64,000 bases of DNA from Phycicoccus sp. Soil748. GTDB taxonomy: Bacteria; Actinomycetota; Actinomycetes; Actinomycetales; Dermatophilaceae. Every line of letters begins with the position of its first letter. The first letter of the stretch is position 1. The stretch is from contig NZ_LMSC01000006.1 of the NCBI RefSeq assembly GCF_001428025.1, positions 201,943 through 265,942 on the forward strand, in the 5' to 3' direction. This document shows, in pieces, positions 27,565-36,573 of the stretch. The position numbers and the translations under genes are program-made. A model generated the notes under the pieces. It had not been told where the DNA came from. It saw nothing but the letters and a program-made list of their open reading frames with translations, and did not search any database.

Positions 27565-28116
27565 TCAACCGCGTGGCGCGGCTGACGACCTCCCGGCAGC
27601 CGCGAGCGGTACGGCGTCGTGCCCCCGGAGCGCCCCCGCGAGGCGCTCGCGGGCCCGCTGGATCCGCTTGCGGGTCGCGGCCGCGCCGGCCCCCACCACC
27701 GCAGCCACCTGCTCGCTGGTCAGGCCCTCCCAGTAGGTGAGGAGCAGGACCTCGCGGTCGTCCTCGCCGAGGTCGGCCAGCGCGGACCGGACCTCGTCCA
27801 CGCGGTCGTCCCCGCCCGCCCCCTCCGAGGGCAGGGACGCCGCGAGCTCGTGGCGCAGCCGGTCCGTGGCTGCGAGCCGCCGCCCGGTCGAGCGCCGGTG
27901 GTTGGCCAGGGTGCGCCGCGCGATGGCGAGCATCCACGCCAACGCCTCGCCCTGCACCTCGGGGGCGTGGTGGACCTTGCGCCAGGTCGTGGTGAGGACC
28001 TCCTGGTAGACGTCGGCGGCGTCCTCGCGAGGTGTCGTCCGACGGGCGAGGTAGGCGAGGACGCGCGGACCGCAGGTGGTCGCCAGCTCCTCGAACCGCC
28101 GCTCGGCCGGCGTCAT
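27565..28116 (-). CDS. RNA polymerase sigma factor, sigma-70/ECF family
   Basis: 183 aa from ATG 28116, overlapping the upstream gene's stop as ATGA. Region 2 (YLARRTTPREDAADVYQEVLTTTWRKV) and region 4 (LGEDDREVLLLTYWEGLTSEQVAAVVGAGAAATRKRIQRAR) are clear. Its translation is tied to the membrane protein upstream, which could act as its anti-sigma or sensor. The Ala/Gly-rich C-terminal tail is probably disordered. Confidence 0.9.
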   Translation of the reverse strand: MTPAERRFEELATTCGPRVLAYLARRTTPREDAADVYQEVLTTTWRKVHHAPEVQGEALAWMLAIARRTLANHRRSTGRRLAATDRLRHELAASLPSEGAGGDDRVDEVRSALADLGEDDREVLLLTYWEGLTSEQVAAVVGAGAAATRKRIQRARERLAGALRGHDAVPLAAAGRSSAAPRG

Positions 28117-28808
28117 CGCTCGCACCCCACGAACTTGGGGTCCTTGCTGATGCGCAGGAAACCGTCCGGGTCCCAGGTCCCGACGGTGCCCTCCTGGGGG
28201 CTGAGCCGTCGAGCCTCCGAGTCGAGGCCGACCATCGCCGCACGTGCCGTCGACGCCGCCGACCGGTCGTGGTCCTCGCCGGCCCACACCAGCGAGCAGC
28301 CCCAGTCGCCGCTGGCCATCGTGAGCAGCTGCGTTCGCAGCATCGTCTCCTGCACCAGGCCCTGGTTGGTGCCGGTGCAGCCGCCCTCCTGGGCGTAGCT
28401 GCGGGCGGTGACCTCGGCGTACTCCTGCCACGAGTGCCCGGGTGCCGCCTGGATCGTGGAAGGTGCCAGCGTCGCGACGTAGTCGGCAAAGTCCTTGGCG
28501 CAGATGTTGATCCGCTCCGAGCCGTCCTCGAACTCCCCGTTGAGGGCGGGGTTGCCGTAGGTCCCGGTCTGGGCGAGGAAGTGCTGGGCGGCGAAGGCGC
28601 CGGTCGGCACGAGGACGATCGCCGCCGCGGTGAACGCCGTGGCGACCTTGTGGCGGCGTCGGAGCCCGCGGACCCGGCCCTGCAGCCCACGGTCGGCGGC
28701 CACGACCTCGCGGGCGACCGTCAGGGACAGCGAGGCAGCCGGTGCGTGGTCGGGTGCCGGTGGTGCGCTCGCCGTGAGCAGCGCGCCCAGCTCGTCGTGG
28801 TCGTTCAT
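28113..28808 (-). CDS. Single-pass membrane protein cotranscribed with sigma factor
   Basis: 231 aa from ATG 28808, with GAGGGGGA upstream. Residues 1-50 are cytoplasmic, residues ~53-75 (KVATAFTAAAIVLVPTGAFAA) form one membrane helix, and the outer ~155 residues contain four Cys, including Cys-Thr in EGGCTGTNQG and the final VGCER. There is no recognised zinc anti-sigma motif. Unusually the partner is encoded before, not after, the sigma gene. An anti-sigma role is inferred from coupling and topology only. Confidence 0.65.
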   Translation of the reverse strand: MNDHDELGALLTASAPPAPDHAPAASLSLTVAREVVAADRGLQGRVRGLRRRHKVATAFTAAAIVLVPTGAFAAQHFLAQTGTYGNPALNGEFEDGSERINICAKDFADYVATLAPSTIQAAPGHSWQEYAEVTARSYAQEGGCTGTNQGLVQETMLRTQLLTMASGDWGCSLVWAGEDHDRSAASTARAAMVGLDSEARRLSPQEGTVGTWDPDGFLRISKDPKFVGCER

Positions 28809-30638: not shown

Positions 30639-33230
30639 TCAGGAGGGTGCTGCGGTACGGGGTGCGGCCCAGTCGGCGCCGTAGAGGTTGAAGGCGCGCG
30701 CGCCCGGGTGGGCGGCCACCGTCGCAGCCAGGGCCTCGGCCGAGCCGTGGCCGGTCGCGAGCAGCCGGTGGTAGTCGACCATGGCAGCCGCAGCCACTTC
30801 GTCGGGCACCGGGGCGACGGCGGCGACCACGCTGCGTACGCCCAGGGCGAGCAGGGCCGACGTGAGCCCCAGCGGCTCGTCGCCCGGCCGCAGGTCTGCC
30901 TGGCCGACGTCGCACGCCGACAGCACCACGTGGCTCGACGTGACCGGCCGCGGGAGCTCGTGGGCGAAGAGCGGGCCGTCGGCGAGGAGCAACGAGGAGA
31001 AGTAGGGGTTCTGCCGTTCGTGGGTGCCGTGGGCCGCGACGTGCACCACGGTGTCCCGGCGCAGCGCCCGCCGCAGGGCCGGACCGTCGGCGGTGCCCGA
31101 GGCGCTCACGGACGCGCCCCACACCGATGCGACGGAGTCCGCCTCCAGGCGGGCTCGCCGCAGGTCGGGGCCGGCGAGGGCCGACACCGACAGTGGCGTG
31201 TGGGCCGGCGTCCCGGGCACGGACGTGGGAGCCGCCCAGCGCGTCATCGACGTGGCGACGGTGACCGGGCGCCCGGCCAGGGTGGGCAGGGCAGCCCAGG
31301 GCACGCTCGCGAGCGACCGGCTCGGGCACACCACGATGCCCCCCGGCTCGTCGCCGAGTTCGGTGGCGCCTAGGAGCACCCGGTCGAGCTGGGCCAGGGA
31401 GCTGTCGACGGCACGGCCCACGGCGCGGGCCATGACCGGGTCGGCCGCGGCGTAGGCCCCGGCCCGGAGGTCGCGCGTGAGGCGCTCGGCCAGCGCCTCG
31501 ACCTCGGCGAGGCCGTCCAGGCGCTGCACCGTCGTCCCGGACGGACCGGTGTGCAGCAGGTACTGGTCGTGTCCGTGGTCGAAGAGCACCAGGGCCTGCT
31601 CCTGCCGGCGCTCGAGCGCTGCCCGGGCCCCGGTCAGCGTGGTCGCGCCGTCCACGCCCGACCCGTCGCCGTGCTCGGCGGTGGACCAGTCCTGCTGGGA
31701 CACCTGCCACTCCAGGCGGGCCACCCGTGCCTGCAGCCGGTCGAGCTCGCCGGACCTGCCGCCGTCGTGGTCCGTGACGTCGGCGCCACCGCCGCCGCGC
31801 TCGGCAGCATCGGCCAGCTGGCGCCTGGCCAGGCGCAGCTCGGCCACCAGCTCGGCGCCGGCCGGGTCGTCGGTGCCGGCCAGCGGTGGCAGCCGGTGCG
31901 AGACCGCCCGCCACCGCTCCACGCTGTCGAACACCCGCCTGGCCGAACCGCTGCGCAGGGCGTCGTCGAGGTCCCACTCGGCGAGGCGCCGACCGTGGAC
32001 AGCCAGCGCCGACCGCACCTCGAGGCTCTGGCTCGGTGCCTGACGCTGCGTGAGCCGCCGCAGGGCCGTGTGCACCTCGCGGCGGGCGCGTCGTGAGTCG
32101 CCCTGTGCCGCAGCGACCTTGGCCAGCAGGAGGCGGTCGTGCATGTCACCCGCGAGCCCTTGGCGCGCACGTCCACCGAGGCGTTGTGCAGCCCGGCCCG
32201 CAGCCTCGACGTCGCCGGAGAGGAGCAGCGACTCGACGCGCAGCCGCGCAGCCAGCCGCTCGTCCGGGGTCACGGGCGAGGGACCGGTGCCCGACGGCAG
32301 GTACGGGGCGAGGACCTCGTCGAGGTCGCGGGGTACGCGCCCCTCGGCGACGTCGACCGAGGCGCGCAGCAGGGCCGTGCTCTGCTGGCGGCCGACGGCC
32401 CCCCGCGACCGGAACACCCGGATGGCCGCCCCCAGCTCGCGCCGGGCGCGGGCGGTGTCGCGGTCGAGCACCGCGACAGCGGCGAGGTCGAGCCTGATGT
32501 CGGCCTGCTCCAGCCGCAGTCCCTCGGCCCGCGCCCGGCCCAGGGCGTCGACGAGGGTGTCACGGGCCTGGTCGAGGAGGCCTGCCTCCAGCAGCACGGC
32601 CGCGAGGTCCTGCTTGGCCCGCGCCCGCGCCACGGGCGCGTCGACCTCGTCGGCGGCGCGCATGAGGGCGATGGCCTGCGGCAGGTGGCCGGCGTAGAAC
32701 TCCAGGCAGCCCAGGTTGTGCCGTGCCTTGAACTCCTGCTCGGGCAGGTCGTGCTCGAGGCTGAGGGCCAGGGCGCGCTCGAGCTCGGTCCGGGCCGGCC
32801 CGAGCTGGAGCAGCGACAGGTGCGAGAGGCCGCCGTTGAGCAGGGCGGCCACCTGCTCGCGCTCGGTGAGCAGGTCGAAGGCGGGTCCGACCCGGTCGAG
32901 TGCCGCCACGGCTTCACGCCACTCCGCGCAGTACACGTGGAGCATGGCCTGCTGCACGTGGGTGAGCGCGACGAGCCGCGGCGCGTCGGTCAGGCTGCGG
33001 GCCTCGTCGAGCAACGCGAGGGCCCTGCCCCGGTCCCGCAGGGCCAAGGTGGTCCATGCGAGGGTGATGAGCACGCGTGCCCTGGCCACCGACTGCTCCT
33101 CGTCCGGGAGCCGGGTACTGCGCCTGAGCGCCTGCCGCAGCGCGCGCTCGGCATCGCGGAACCGCCCGATGGAGTTGAGGTGGCGGGCCCGCGAGAGCAG
33201 CTCCCCGACCTGTGGGTCCGCGACCTCGAT
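30639..33230 (-). CDS. TPR-CHAT domain protease
   Basis: About 863 aa. The first ~520 residues are TPR-like helical repeats (ARHLNSIGRFRDAERALRQAL; ARHNLGCLEFYAGHLPQAI), with a coiled-coil-rich stretch around 470-560. The C-terminal ~280 residues are a CHAT domain of the caspase clan with the dyad His in VVHVAAHGTHE (about 734) and Cys in VVLSACDVGQ (about 773). The start is unusual. No ATG, GTG or TTG fits after the upstream stop; an ATC at 33230 has AGGGGA at the right distance and is used here. It is the last gene of the subtilase-sigma operon, probably a protease gated by a signal on its TPR part. Confidence 0.85.
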   Translation of the reverse strand: MEVADPQVGELLSRARHLNSIGRFRDAERALRQALRRSTRLPDEEQSVARARVLITLAWTTLALRDRGRALALLDEARSLTDAPRLVALTHVQQAMLHVYCAEWREAVAALDRVGPAFDLLTEREQVAALLNGGLSHLSLLQLGPARTELERALALSLEHDLPEQEFKARHNLGCLEFYAGHLPQAIALMRAADEVDAPVARARAKQDLAAVLLEAGLLDQARDTLVDALGRARAEGLRLEQADIRLDLAAVAVLDRDTARARRELGAAIRVFRSRGAVGRQQSTALLRASVDVAEGRVPRDLDEVLAPYLPSGTGPSPVTPDERLAARLRVESLLLSGDVEAAGRAAQRLGGRARQGLAGDMHDRLLLAKVAAAQGDSRRARREVHTALRRLTQRQAPSQSLEVRSALAVHGRRLAEWDLDDALRSGSARRVFDSVERWRAVSHRLPPLAGTDDPAGAELVAELRLARRQLADAAERGGGGADVTDHDGGRSGELDRLQARVARLEWQVSQQDWSTAEHGDGSGVDGATTLTGARAALERRQEQALVLFDHGHDQYLLHTGPSGTTVQRLDGLAEVEALAERLTRDLRAGAYAAADPVMARAVGRAVDSSLAQLDRVLLGATELGDEPGGIVVCPSRSLASVPWAALPTLAGRPVTVATSMTRWAAPTSVPGTPAHTPLSVSALAGPDLRRARLEADSVASVWGASVSASGTADGPALRRALRRDTVVHVAAHGTHERQNPYFSSLLLADGPLFAHELPRPVTSSHVVLSACDVGQADLRPGDEPLGLTSALLALGVRSVVAAVAPVPDEVAAAAMVDYHRLLATGHGSAEALAATVAAHPGARAFNLYGADWAAPRTAAPS

Positions 33231-33238
33231 GGCGTCCC

Positions 33239-33742
33239 CTAGATCTCGATGGCCGGGGTGATGACCGGGCGGCTGTCCGGCAGGTCGAGCCGGCGCAGCA
33301 CCAGGTGCACGAGCCCACGTTCGACCGTCGTGAACCTGAACCTGCCGTCGGCGTCGGTCTCGGTGGTCTGCGTGCGGGAGCGCTCGCGCAGCTCCACCGC
33401 GGTGGGGCCGTCGGCGCTGACCCACCCGCTGATGCGGGCCCGGCCACCGTCGACCGGCTCGATGGTGATCATCGCGCTGAGGTGGGCGCTGGAGAACGTG
33501 ATGGTCTGCGCGCGGTCGTAGGTCGTCGTCCGTACCCCGGCCGTCTCGGCGCCGGCCCGGGTGATCTGGGCGACCTCGGCCTCCAGGGCGGCCACCGTCA
33601 TGGCGAACTTCGAGCGCTCCGCCAGTCCCGACGGCACGGGGTCGCTGGCCGCGACGATCGACCGCAGGGTGGCCAGGGCGCGCGCGTCCTCAGCGTCCAG
33701 GGGCTCCTCGGCCAGGCGGTCGAGGTCGAGGTCCTCGTTCAC
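33239..33742 (-). CDS. Carboxypeptidase-regulatory-like domain protein
   Basis: 167 aa from GTG 33742, overlapping the sigma gene's stop as GTGA. Residues 1-65 are acidic and helical (NEDLDLDRLAEEPLDAEDARALATL), possibly a docking segment. Residues ~85-165 form a beta-sandwich resembling carboxypeptidase-regulatory-like domains (ISGWVSADGPTAVELRE, TDADGRFRFTTV, LVHLVLRR). There is no signal peptide or membrane segment. It sits between the sigma factor and the CHAT protease. That position suggests an adaptor or protease substrate holding the sigma factor, but this is inference. Confidence 0.7.
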   Translation of the reverse strand: MNEDLDLDRLAEEPLDAEDARALATLRSIVAASDPVPSGLAERSKFAMTVAALEAEVAQITRAGAETAGVRTTTYDRAQTITFSSAHLSAMITIEPVDGGRARISGWVSADGPTAVELRERSRTQTTETDADGRFRFTTVERGLVHLVLRRLDLPDSRPVITPAIEI

Positions 33743-34335
33743 GACGCCACGTCCCATCCGGGATCGGCCTTGAGCGCCACGCGGAGCTTGGCCAGGCACC
33801 GGCCACGGGTGGGGCCGATGCTGCCGACCGGCATGCCCAGTGCCTCCGCCACGTGCGCGTAGTCCGGCCGCTCGGCGAGGGCCACGACGCGCAGCAGCTG
33901 CTGGCACCGGGTCGACAGCGTGGCGAAGTGCCTCCACAGCACCACCTGCTCCTGGCCCCGGACGAGCACCTGCTCGGGCTCGCCGGCCACGTCCTGCGTG
34001 GTGTCGAGGTCCTCGCCGAGCTCCTCGCGGACGTCCTCGCGCCGGGACTTCCTGGCCGTGGCCCACGCCTCGCGCCGGGTGGTGGTGATGAGCCACTTGA
34101 GCACGGCCTGGGGGTCGTGGATGGACGGCGCGTGCTGGACCAGCAGCAGCCAGGTCGTCTGGACGACGTCCTCCGCCTGAGCGGGGTCGAGGCCCTGGCT
34201 CCGGGCGGTGTGCCAGAGGAGGGTCGTGGTGGTGTCGACCAGGTCCGACATGGCCTGGGCGTCACCCTCGCGGTAGGCGGAGAACGCGCGTGCCGCGCGT
34301 TCGGCCAGGCTCCCGGTGGTGCCGTCGGTGTGCAT
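33739..34335 (-). CDS. Sigma-70 family RNA polymerase sigma factor
   Basis: 198 aa from ATG 34335, with GAAGGGGG upstream; its start overlaps the subtilase stop as TGATG. Region 2 includes LLWHTARSQGLDPAQAEDVVQTTW and region 4 includes LSTRCQQLLRVVALAERPDYAHVAEALGMPVGSIGPTRGRCLAKLR. It should direct polymerase to a special promoter set when freed or made. Lying between two proteases in one operon, it is the likely output of the system. Confidence 0.88.
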   Translation of the reverse strand: MHTDGTTGSLAERAARAFSAYREGDAQAMSDLVDTTTTLLWHTARSQGLDPAQAEDVVQTTWLLLVQHAPSIHDPQAVLKWLITTTRREAWATARKSRREDVREELGEDLDTTQDVAGEPEQVLVRGQEQVVLWRHFATLSTRCQQLLRVVALAERPDYAHVAEALGMPVGSIGPTRGRCLAKLRVALKADPGWDVAS

Positions 34336-35939
34336 CAGTGGTCCCCCTTCACGGCGGCGGCAACGGCTCGACCTGCGAGCTTCACGCGGGCCGCCGCGTC
34401 CGCGTCCGGTGTGGCATGGGTGACGAGCCAGGCCGCGACGTCGCCGGCGAGGGCGGGGGCCGCGAACGACGTGCCGCTCCACTGGCCGAAGCCGCCGGAG
34501 TAGTCGTCGAGGTCGATCGAGCCGCGCGTCGGGTTCTTCGAGCCGGGCAGGTTGAGCACGCTGCGGATGCTGCCGTCGAACGTGGTCGGCATGGTGCTGA
34601 CGACCGCGGTGCCGCAGCGGTAGCCCTTCACCCAGGTGCCGGTGTTGGAGTAGACCGACACGGTCCGGCCGCCCTTGTTGCGGCCCCCGGGGTTGTGCGC
34701 GCCGACGCTCACCAGGGGCACGGCGAACCCGCTGCCCACGGCGAACGCCGCCGGGAAGAACTCGACGTCGCTGGCTCCGTTGCCGGCGGCCGCGACCACG
34801 GCGACGCCGGTGGAGGCGAGCGCCTTCAGGGCCGTGACGAGGGCGCCCTCGTCGTCGAAGGTGCCGACGGTCTCGTGGTAGTAGCCGAGCGACAGCGACA
34901 GCACGTCGACCAGCGGTCCCCAGCGCTCCGGGTCGCGCAGGGCGAGGAGCTGGCGGGCGTAGAGCAGCTGCAGTGCGTCGACGACCACCGCCTCGTCGGC
35001 CACCCCGTCGCCGTACATCACGGGCACCGCCATGAGGGTCGCCTCGGGGCAGTGCTGGCGCACGATGCCCGCGATGAAGGTCCCGTGGCCGGCGAGCCGG
35101 TCGAGGACGCCGTTGACACGGTCGATGGTGACACCGGTGTTCTCGGGGTCGTCCTCGGCCGTGAAGACGAGGCCGACCGGCTCGCCGCCCACCTCCACGT
35201 CACGGATGACCCCGCGCTCGAACCACTCGTGCCTGCCGATCCCGGTGTCCAGCAGGGCGACCACCGGGCCCTTCGGCATCGTCTCCGGGCAGGGGTTCGG
35301 TGCGGCCAAGGTGACGGGGGAGCGGCCGGAGGGGCCGCCCCCGGGCAGGCCCGCGAGGCCCACACCCTCTCCGTACCCGACGCCCTCGCCGTAGCCGACG
35401 CCTTCCCCGTAACCCACGCCCTCGCCGTACCCGACCCCTTCGCCGTACCCGACGCCCTCGCCGTACCCGGTGCCGACCATGACGTGGCAGAGCTCGACGG
35501 AGCGGGCGGCGCCGGGGTCGGCAGCGCGCAGGTCCTGCAGGATCTTCCAGGCGTCCGGGGGCTCGACGGCGACACCGGTGAGCGGGGCGATGACCACGCT
35601 CGTGGTGCCCACCCGGTCGAGCTCCTCGGTGAGCTCGAGGCGGGCGAACAGGTCGCCGAGGCCGGTCTCGCGCCGCTCCTCGACGCTGTAGCGGTCCTTC
35701 AGCAGCTCGCGCAGGGCGGCGATCGGCCCGCCGGCGCGTCCCTGGACGAGGCCGCGGACCAGCAGGCAGTCACCCACGTATGCCGTGGGGCTGGGTGCCG
35801 GCTGGTCGCCGAGCCGCTTGCTCGTGGCGGGGTCGAGGGCGCGTACCCCGAGCCGGCGGACGGCACTGCCCGGCACCCCCACCCGGGGGATGCGTCGACC
35901 CGGTCCTCGGCTCGAGGTGGGGGCCGTCGTCTGTGCCAT
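34335..35939 (-). CDS. Intracellular S8 (subtilisin-like) peptidase with GYGEGV repeats
   Basis: 534 aa from ATG 35939. No signal peptide follows the start (MAQTTAPTSSRGPGRR), so it is probably cytosolic. Residues 1-155 are a distinct N-terminal domain. Residues 156-191 are six GYGEGV hexapeptides in tandem. The subtilase domain follows, with catalytic Asp230 (VVALLDTGIG), His284 (AGHGTFIAG) and Ser491 (SGTSFAAPALAG) all present, plus the oxyanion Asn region AAAGNGASDV. The repeat region may be a flexible hinge or cleavage site between the two domains. It is first of four overlapping genes ending with the CHAT protease. Confidence 0.88.
   Translation of the reverse strand: MAQTTAPTSSRGPGRRIPRVGVPGSAVRRLGVRALDPATSKRLGDQPAPSPTAYVGDCLLVRGLVQGRAGGPIAALRELLKDRYSVEERRETGLGDLFARLELTEELDRVGTTSVVIAPLTGVAVEPPDAWKILQDLRAADPGAARSVELCHVMVGTGYGEGVGYGEGVGYGEGVGYGEGVGYGEGVGYGEGVGLAGLPGGGPSGRSPVTLAAPNPCPETMPKGPVVALLDTGIGRHEWFERGVIRDVEVGGEPVGLVFTAEDDPENTGVTIDRVNGVLDRLAGHGTFIAGIVRQHCPEATLMAVPVMYGDGVADEAVVVDALQLLYARQLLALRDPERWGPLVDVLSLSLGYYHETVGTFDDEGALVTALKALASTGVAVVAAAGNGASDVEFFPAAFAVGSGFAVPLVSVGAHNPGGRNKGGRTVSVYSNTGTWVKGYRCGTAVVSTMPTTFDGSIRSVLNLPGSKNPTRGSIDLDDYSGGFGQWSGTSFAAPALAGDVAAWLVTHATPDADAAARVKLAGRAVAAAVKGDH
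35365..35472 (-). repeat. Six tandem 18-bp coding repeats (GYGEGV) in the subtilase gene
   Basis: Six consecutive 18-bp units encode the hexapeptide GYGEGV without interruption. The DNA units differ at several third positions, so the amino-acid sequence has been kept by selection or recent gene conversion rather than being a fresh slippage product. Confidence 0.85.
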
Positions 35940-36450
35940 GAGCTCTCCCCTGTGGGCGGAAGCCGACGCGGACGCAACCGGTGCGCCGCTGGTCAGCGTA
36001 GTGAGACCACCACGTCGCTGACAGGAGAACCGGAGGTTCCCGCTGATACAAGTCAGACGGACCCGGTTGCGCCTGCTGGACCCTCGGGACGAGAAGTTCG
36101 GGCGCCGGTGTATCAGGCGGGGGACGGGCCGCTCCTTCATGGTGTCCGGTTCGGTCAAGGGGAACGGGTCGGACGCCACGAAAGGACCCTCATGTCACCC
36201 AGGTCTGGTGAGTGCCGATGGCGGCGGACACGGGTGGCCGAGGTCAGCTGGCCCGGGGGGAGCCAGCGAGTGGTCCGGTCGCGACAGGGGTTTCGCGGTC
36301 GGGCAGCCCTGCGGGGCGCGTCGTCGGGAGGCGTCGGTGCGGGGCGGTGCTGGTCGGGGGTCGCCAGCAGCCGTCCGGCCCGGCCTTCCGGGCGACGTCC
36401 CTAGGCGGCGTCCTCCGTAGGGGCGTGGCCGCGTACGGGGGTGCGCGCGA
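35940..36450. other. Gene-free region upstream of the subtilase-sigma-CHAT operon
   Basis: About 510 bases carry no convincing coding sequence on either strand; open frames here lack ribosome sites and have arginine-rich, shadow-like translations. The operon promoter must lie here. CGCTGATACA (36041-36050) and its near-complement TGTATCAGGCG (36109-36119) form an inverted pair about 58 bases apart that could be regulator sites. I see no clear -35/-10 pair. Confidence 0.4.
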
Positions 36451-36501
36451 AGGAGCCCGCGGTGCTGCACACACATCCGGTGTGCGGCGCCGCGGGCTCC
36501 T
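36451..36501 (-). terminator. Hairpin terminator of the YtxH gene
   Basis: A 12-bp perfect outer stem (36451-36462 / 36490-36501; AGGAGCCCGCGG) extends into an imperfect inner stem around CACAC/GTGTG. It lies 73 bases after the stop of the YtxH gene on the minus strand. Confidence 0.65.
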
Positions 36502-36573
36502 CGTCGTGCCCGGCCTGGCGAGAACACGGCCAGGGCCGACTCATGCTCGACTCGTGGTCGGTTCAAGGTCGGC

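Follow-up and report, generated by a model that had tools for sequence, protein, structure and literature searches.

A conserved chromosomal locus in Phycicoccus combining an ECF54-like sigma factor, a candidate inhibitor, two proteases, a promoter-like motif and a divergent structured RNA

The window (the whole 64-kb stretch of DNA analyzed, to which all unattributed coordinates refer) contains an operon of four genes on the minus strand, encoding an S8 subtilase, an ECF sigma factor, a 167-aa protein and a TPR-CHAT protease, which were assigned as follows.

34335..35939, minus strand: S8 subtilase, 534 aa (Pfam, active-site positions and fold prediction)
33739..34335, minus strand: ECF sigma factor, 198 aa, ECF54-like by gene context (Pfam and NCBIfam)
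33239..33742, minus strand: 167-aa sigma partner, proposed soluble anti-sigma factor (predicted fold and co-occurrence)
30639..33230, minus strand: TPR-CHAT cysteine protease, 863 aa, with an apparent ATC start (Pfam and His734/Cys773)

An earlier sequence-only reading had described four genes joined by TGATG (34333-34337), GTGA (33739-33742) and an 8-nt gap, and all of these are present, with the gap at 33231-33238 and the start of the 167-aa gene overlapping the sigma stop codon. Pfam matches above cut-off were Peptidase_S8 (9e-15), Sigma70_r2 (7e-8) and CHAT (2e-26), and those below cut-off were TPR_12 (2.5e-4) and, in the 167-aa protein, CarboxypepD_reg (4e-3); the sigma factor also scored 56.9 bits on TIGR02937 (cut-off 42.9). 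Both proteases possess the complete catalytic sets that the earlier reading had claimed (S8 Asp231/His285/Ser491; CHAT His734/Cys773), but its positions for the S8 Asp and His, 230 and 284, were off by one. The S8 triad is kept in 50 of 50 rows compared and the CHAT His/Cys pair in 49 of 50, the exception being truncated by a contig end (one locus is counted twice in these rows, L001 and L035 being the same place). A simple hydropathy scan revealed no hydrophobic N-terminus in either protease, in agreement with the suggestion that neither has a signal peptide. Among named relatives that match closely, the nearest is Phycicoccus sp. Root101, whose 167-aa protein is 78% identical. Beyond cysK, a frame at approximately 27565-28190 on the minus strand reads in translation as a second ECF-like sigma factor.

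The S8 protein comprises an N-domain (approximately residues 20 to 155), a disordered repeat linker and the catalytic domain. In the predicted structure, strands alternate with helices between residues 50 and 155, and Foldseek aligned the protein with pro-subtilisin E and PCSK9 over approximately 480 to 530 columns with query TM-scores of only 0.36 to 0.42; as modeled, the N-domain is possibly propeptide-like. The linker carries a short tandem repeat.

35361..35468, minus strand: six GYGEGV hexapeptide repeats in the S8 linker (translation and repeat scan)

The six copies differ only by synonymous changes in this genome, and the linker and one two-copy family are the close direct repeats in the window. 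No array-like repeat was found in the 64 kb, which bears out the earlier statement that CRISPR is absent. Among relatives, linker units include GYGDGV, GYGSGV, GYWGGV, FWGGHG and PFTSGG; repeats within one protein mostly change together, and the unit varies from species to species.

In the window, as in close relatives, CHAT lacks a standard start codon (ATG, GTG or TTG) where one would be expected; the codon at its given start in the window is ATC (33228-33230, minus strand) behind an SD-like AGGGG, and the upstream in-frame GTG at 33425 lies within the small gene. ATC is a very rare start codon. At loci where CHAT directly follows the small gene, an in-frame ATC occupies the expected start in 17 of 26 (the window, L002, L003, L004, L035 to L041, L043, L045, L046, L053, L056 and L075), with an SD-like stretch in most. 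Seven of these 17 (L002, L003, L004, L037, L040, L041 and L075) also have an ATG, GTG or TTG within 45 bases of the small-gene stop, and three (the window, L002 and L037) have an in-frame GTG inside the small gene upstream of CHAT; because of these alternative standard codons, such loci are not decisive. In L039 and L043, CHAT is in the frame of the small gene and its start must therefore follow the small-gene stop, the next standard codon being 153 bases away in L039 and none occurring within 200 bases in L043. CHAT seems, from these comparisons, to start at ATC, with L039 and L043 providing the clearest cases.

The 167-aa protein is present in 27 of 58 relatives, including 10 of 11 genus genomes, and a profile search detected it in at least 29 of 298 phylum genomes (12 first-look candidates scored per genome). 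Sixty loci were read around its gene, usually over 12 to 18 kb each, leaving out L001 (the same place as L035), the short duplicates L005 to L034, and L062 to L064, which were first matches without module genes (L063 being a weak small-protein match only). These 60 loci are not independent, as many of them come from the same genus or family and, in some cases, two or three come from a single genome. The sigma factor is encoded at 57 of the 60, making the 167-aa protein its near-constant partner, and S8 and CHAT at 48 each (L093 was scored as S8-less, though Pfam places S8 beside its CHAT gene). All four genes occur together at 47 loci, far above chance, in several gene orders: 25 are S8-sigma-small-CHAT, 5 are sigma-small-S8-CHAT, and others have CHAT or S8 inverted. 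At 9 of the 60 loci, the sigma factor and 167-aa protein occur with no linked protease.

The 167-aa protein is predicted, at fair confidence, to contain three helices, a low-confidence flexible stretch and a seven-strand beta sandwich (pLDDT 87.6, pTM 0.55). A fold search returned nothing at an E value of 1e-3 or better, with Ig/FnIII-like sandwiches on top and no anti-sigma fold among the 50 matches listed, and Pfam, NCBIfam and PDB sequences contained no match to a known anti-sigma family. The CarboxypepD_reg match is weak throughout (18 of 22 members at E values up to 0.1). The protein is proposed to be a soluble inhibitor (anti-sigma factor) of the sigma factor. A different scheme has been published for ECF54 sigma factors, which adjoin carboxypeptidase, subtilase and CHAT proteins, mainly in Actinobacteria: in its passage on this group, PMC8999054, citing Casas-Pastor 2021 and Huang 2015, proposes that proteolysis, and no anti-sigma factor, exerts the control. 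The proteases would then hold the system off by degrading the sigma factor, and a sigma factor that drives its own degraders would give negative feedback. This scheme appears distinctly unlikely here, as no partner accompanies the sigma factor more constantly than the 167-aa protein, which is probably the “carboxypeptidase” of that account, its weak CarboxypepD_reg-like domain being a non-peptidase one.

In the window and in all nine fetched genus loci, the module is flanked by cysK-cysE on one side and a ytxH-like gene on the other (names from reading of translations), and cysK-cysE is nearby in 17 of 27 compared loci but not in the other 10. These conserved neighbors suggest that the module has been passed on with the chromosome, in the genus and near family at the least. 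A mobile origin was rejected, as tblastn with CHAT matched 2 of 72,556 plasmid records and 1 of 50,697 phage records. One of the plasmid matches, NZ_LT559118.1 (L167), is a Nonomuraea record of 11.85 Mb that is classed as a plasmid and that holds the whole module but lacks the exact motif described below; the other, a Streptomyces chartreusis record, covers 32% of the CHAT query. MT838002.1 (2467-4716) is a 7.5-kb “phage” record from feces, possibly a bacterial fragment, encoding a CHAT protein that aligns to 89% of the query at 36% identity. The best PADLOC match was weak (E value of 0.029). Given the chromosomal site and the conserved neighbors in the genus, a stress response fits better than a defense island.

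The region upstream of S8 in genus relatives has in common GTATCA, a 16-base spacer and CTCCT, and three short features were recognized there.

36025..36050, minus strand: TGTATCA-N16-CTC, promoter-like, reading into the S8-sigma-small-CHAT operon (pattern counts against controls)
36109..36134, plus strand: divergent copy of the motif, reading into a structured RNA (pattern scan)
35993..36004, minus strand: TCACTACGCTGA, invariant in 8 aligned genus loci (alignment)

TGTATCA-N15-17-CTC occurs twice in the 64 kb against an expectation of 0.07, both copies being upstream of S8 and divergent; TCACTACGCTGA is a possible second, sigma70-like promoter. Across the 60 loci (1.05 Mb), GTATCA-N16-CTC occurs 76 times, compared with 0 to 12 occurrences for the other spacings between 10 and 22, none for the reversed pattern and 0 to 3 for 12 permuted patterns. 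When GTATCA-N16/17-CTC was counted within 700 bases before the first module gene, it was found at 48 of 60 loci (before S8 in 30, the sigma gene in 16 and the small gene in 2), while eight control patterns were found there at 0 to 4 loci. Five of the 12 loci lacking it in this position (L066, L084, L086, L090 and L092) have their only copy of the motif within the sigma gene, at its 3' end and directly before the small gene; these are distant loci, where it may be an internal promoter or a coding coincidence. The remaining seven have no motif match, although L053 retains a CAC variant, and no match was found at the Nonomuraea locus (L167). The module is split in the draft genome G028, where the motif lies 105 bases upstream of sigma-small on contig C63 and 182 bases upstream of S8-CHAT on contig C1.

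From these positions, we infer that the sigma factor reads GTATCA-N16/17-CTC as its own promoter, and the layout fits a self-activating sigma circuit. The motif before an S8-CHAT pair unlinked from the sigma factor would also suit the strongest rival explanation, in which the proteases are output: the 167-aa protein would sense a signal and release the sigma factor, which would make proteases acting on cell proteins. The nine loci with the sigma factor and 167-aa protein and no linked protease point the same way, and the modeled beta sandwich could bind a ligand. However, no ligand-binding family was found for the 167-aa protein, and the adjacency of both proteases to the sigma factor at 47 of 60 loci fits a regulatory loop equally well; proteases as output are regarded as somewhat unlikely.

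The divergent motif copy is followed directly by a conserved structure on the opposite strand to the operon.

36135..36515 (ends estimated), plus strand: structured, probably non-coding RNA with G-rich hairpin loops (folding, covariation and covariance model)
36239-36404, plus strand: core of the RNA
approximately 36438-36514, plus strand: end hairpin of the RNA

Folding energy was -235.5 in the window, compared with -204.7 (standard deviation 5.4) for 40 mononucleotide shuffles, and -220.2 in L037, compared with -169.3 (standard deviation 5.0). All nine folded sequences, over a stretch including the end hairpin, fell below the shuffle mean, as did the opposite strand in several of the nine. 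In an eight-sequence alignment, 82 pairs were 92.7% formed versus 39 to 47% when slid, and double-change cells numbered 41 versus 14.9 in shuffles (0 of 500 reaching that number), figures that are favored by deriving the structure from the same alignment. A covariance model of the core, searched against 52 sources, recovered a ninth copy from outside the training set, in L052 of the same genus, with an E value of 2.8e-19. Among the candidates scored (150 per genome), the RNA occurs in 9 of 11 genus genomes and at this locus only; it is absent from G005, which is module-less, and was not called in G002, where there is a partial match of 28 bits. Two of the six loops listed have at least four G in all eight sequences, and another reads GGGG or GGGA.

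A 70-aa gene was considered for the divergent transcript and rejected, as there was no consistent third-codon substitution excess (15 pairs from 6 of the 8 sequences) and the L052 copy has no start codon at that place. In the Rfam search only tRNAs reached the gathering threshold, and a mir-Ro6-3 match on the end hairpin (30.5 of 79 bits) looks like chance. The stretch is probably a non-coding RNA and, with no Rfam match, may represent a new RNA family; its position suggests that it is driven by the divergent motif copy. It is a long shot that the RNA, produced from the operon's own type of promoter, takes part in the switch by binding or tuning the TPR-CHAT protease or its partner through its conserved G-rich loops, which would put a caspase-like protease under RNA control with no CRISPR involved.

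The motif counts speak against a large “defense regulon”. In this genome, the N16 motif is confined to this locus and one further site (L098), which was rejected as a target because it sits within a coding region, and at least one N17 site, before a small membrane-protein gene, is present; the T-prefixed N16 form occurs at the module locus only, and the longer form with one mismatch allowed gave 2 matches, at the locus, versus 10 for a reversed control. The 11 genus genomes contain 54 sites in total, of which 19, spread over 10 genomes, lie at the module and 35 lie elsewhere; since the latter are not far above the 24 of the reversed control, most are probably chance. Inspection of 18 of the 35 (including L098) revealed three orthologous groups.

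Small predicted membrane protein: N16 motif in 3 genomes
Small Cys/His protein after a DNA-ligase-like gene: N16 motif in 4 genomes
Large protein with weak Ig/CarboxypepD_reg-like matches: motif in 2 genomes

The small membrane-protein gene is present in 4 of 11 genus genomes and preceded by the motif in all 4, three times as N16 and in the present genome as N17 (G000:C9:157588, L219, before an 82-aa predicted membrane protein). Five genus genomes have the motif at the Cys/His gene (L191, L187, L199, L201 and L207, the last as N17), whose product has no significant Pfam match. The regulon looks, from these sites, small yet wider than the module. A purely self-contained loop was set aside, since the conserved off-module sites speak against it and strengthen the case that the motif is a genuine promoter.

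The 82-aa protein matched a TRADD-N-associated 2-TM family non-significantly (E value of 0.16), which would lend something to the idea that the module defends against phage or triggers cell death, with the proteases or the small membrane protein as the killing agent. Neighborhoods of caspase-superfamily proteases and ECF sigma factors are also predicted conflict systems in the part of PMC8195603 that treats them. Such a system is considered very unlikely, given that the chromosomal site next to cysK-cysE is conserved within the genus and in some of the family, that the PADLOC match is weak and that plasmid and phage collections gave few matches.

Our preferred reading, to which we assign slightly less than an even chance, is a chromosomal, self-amplifying ECF54-type sigma switch in which a protease frees the sigma factor from the 167-aa inhibitor. 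At rest, the 167-aa protein would bind the sigma factor via its helical N-terminus and keep it off, S8 would be a zymogen held by its own propeptide-like domain, and CHAT would be idle. A signal, probably sensed by the CHAT TPR region or the S8 linker, would trigger one of the proteases, which would cut the 167-aa protein and free the sigma factor. The freed sigma factor would then act at GTATCA-N16/17-CTC promoters of the operon itself, the divergent RNA and a few small genes, including that for the predicted membrane protein. With the inhibitor removed by a protease and the sigma factor driving the operon, the result would be positive feedback. The proposed order of events follows analogy with Craspase and with classical sigma/anti-sigma pairs, which serve as its model. 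Counting against this reading are the absence of any anti-sigma match, the published scheme of opposite sign, the nine loci with no linked protease (motif-bearing proteases turned up elsewhere in a single one of those genomes, G028), the 12 loci lacking the motif before the first module gene, the motif-free Nonomuraea locus and the small excess of off-module sites over the reversed control. The sequence-only reading, in which a CHAT or S8 protease likewise cuts the 167-aa protein or a partner to free the sigma factor, is supported in part, by the conserved gene set, the near-constant pairing of sigma factor and 167-aa protein, the intact active sites and the motif layout. With a candidate promoter and inhibitor, two candidate proteases and a handful of candidate targets, the circuit is directly testable in one soil genus.

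The locus is assigned to ECF54 by gene context only: its sigma factor is an actinobacterial ECF sigma factor, with named relatives in Phycicoccus, Tetrasphaera, Ornithinibacter and Nonomuraea, and the 47 loci that hold all four genes have neighboring subtilase, CHAT and carboxypeptidase(-regulatory) proteins. The gene set itself is already known as the ECF54 context, and the promoter, small regulon and RNA are additions. The passage on ECF54 in PMC8999054 describes no promoter motif, RNA or soluble inhibitor and gives control the opposite sign, with proteases keeping the sigma factor off. Among the papers listed in searches of the open-licence literature, there was no other study of the module, and the ECF54 context was given without promoter, inhibitor or targets. 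Unlike the EACC2/TRADD-N caspase systems, as outlined in the relevant part of PMC8195603, the four proteins have no EACC, TRADD-N or NTPase Pfam match.

The module would work like Craspase, yet is not one. In the portion of PMC10028731 on this pathway, Csx30, which inhibits an ECF sigma factor, is cleaved by the TPR-CHAT protein Csx29; the Craspase/CASP system (type III-E; Csx29, Csx30 and CASP-sigma) shares with the present module a TPR-CHAT protease, an ECF sigma factor and a two-domain partner, and sigma sites within the system's own locus are a further likeness. The 167-aa protein recalls Csx30 in its two-part plan, and none of the sequence and fold searches run matched it to Csx30. Unlike Craspase, the module has no CRISPR array in the 64-kb window and includes an additional S8 protease, and its CHAT protein, unlike Csx29, scores 17.6 bits on NF041237 (cut-off 300). 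If CHAT cuts the inhibitor, the release of a sigma factor by a caspase-like protease would be a general strategy of bacteria and no peculiarity of CRISPR.
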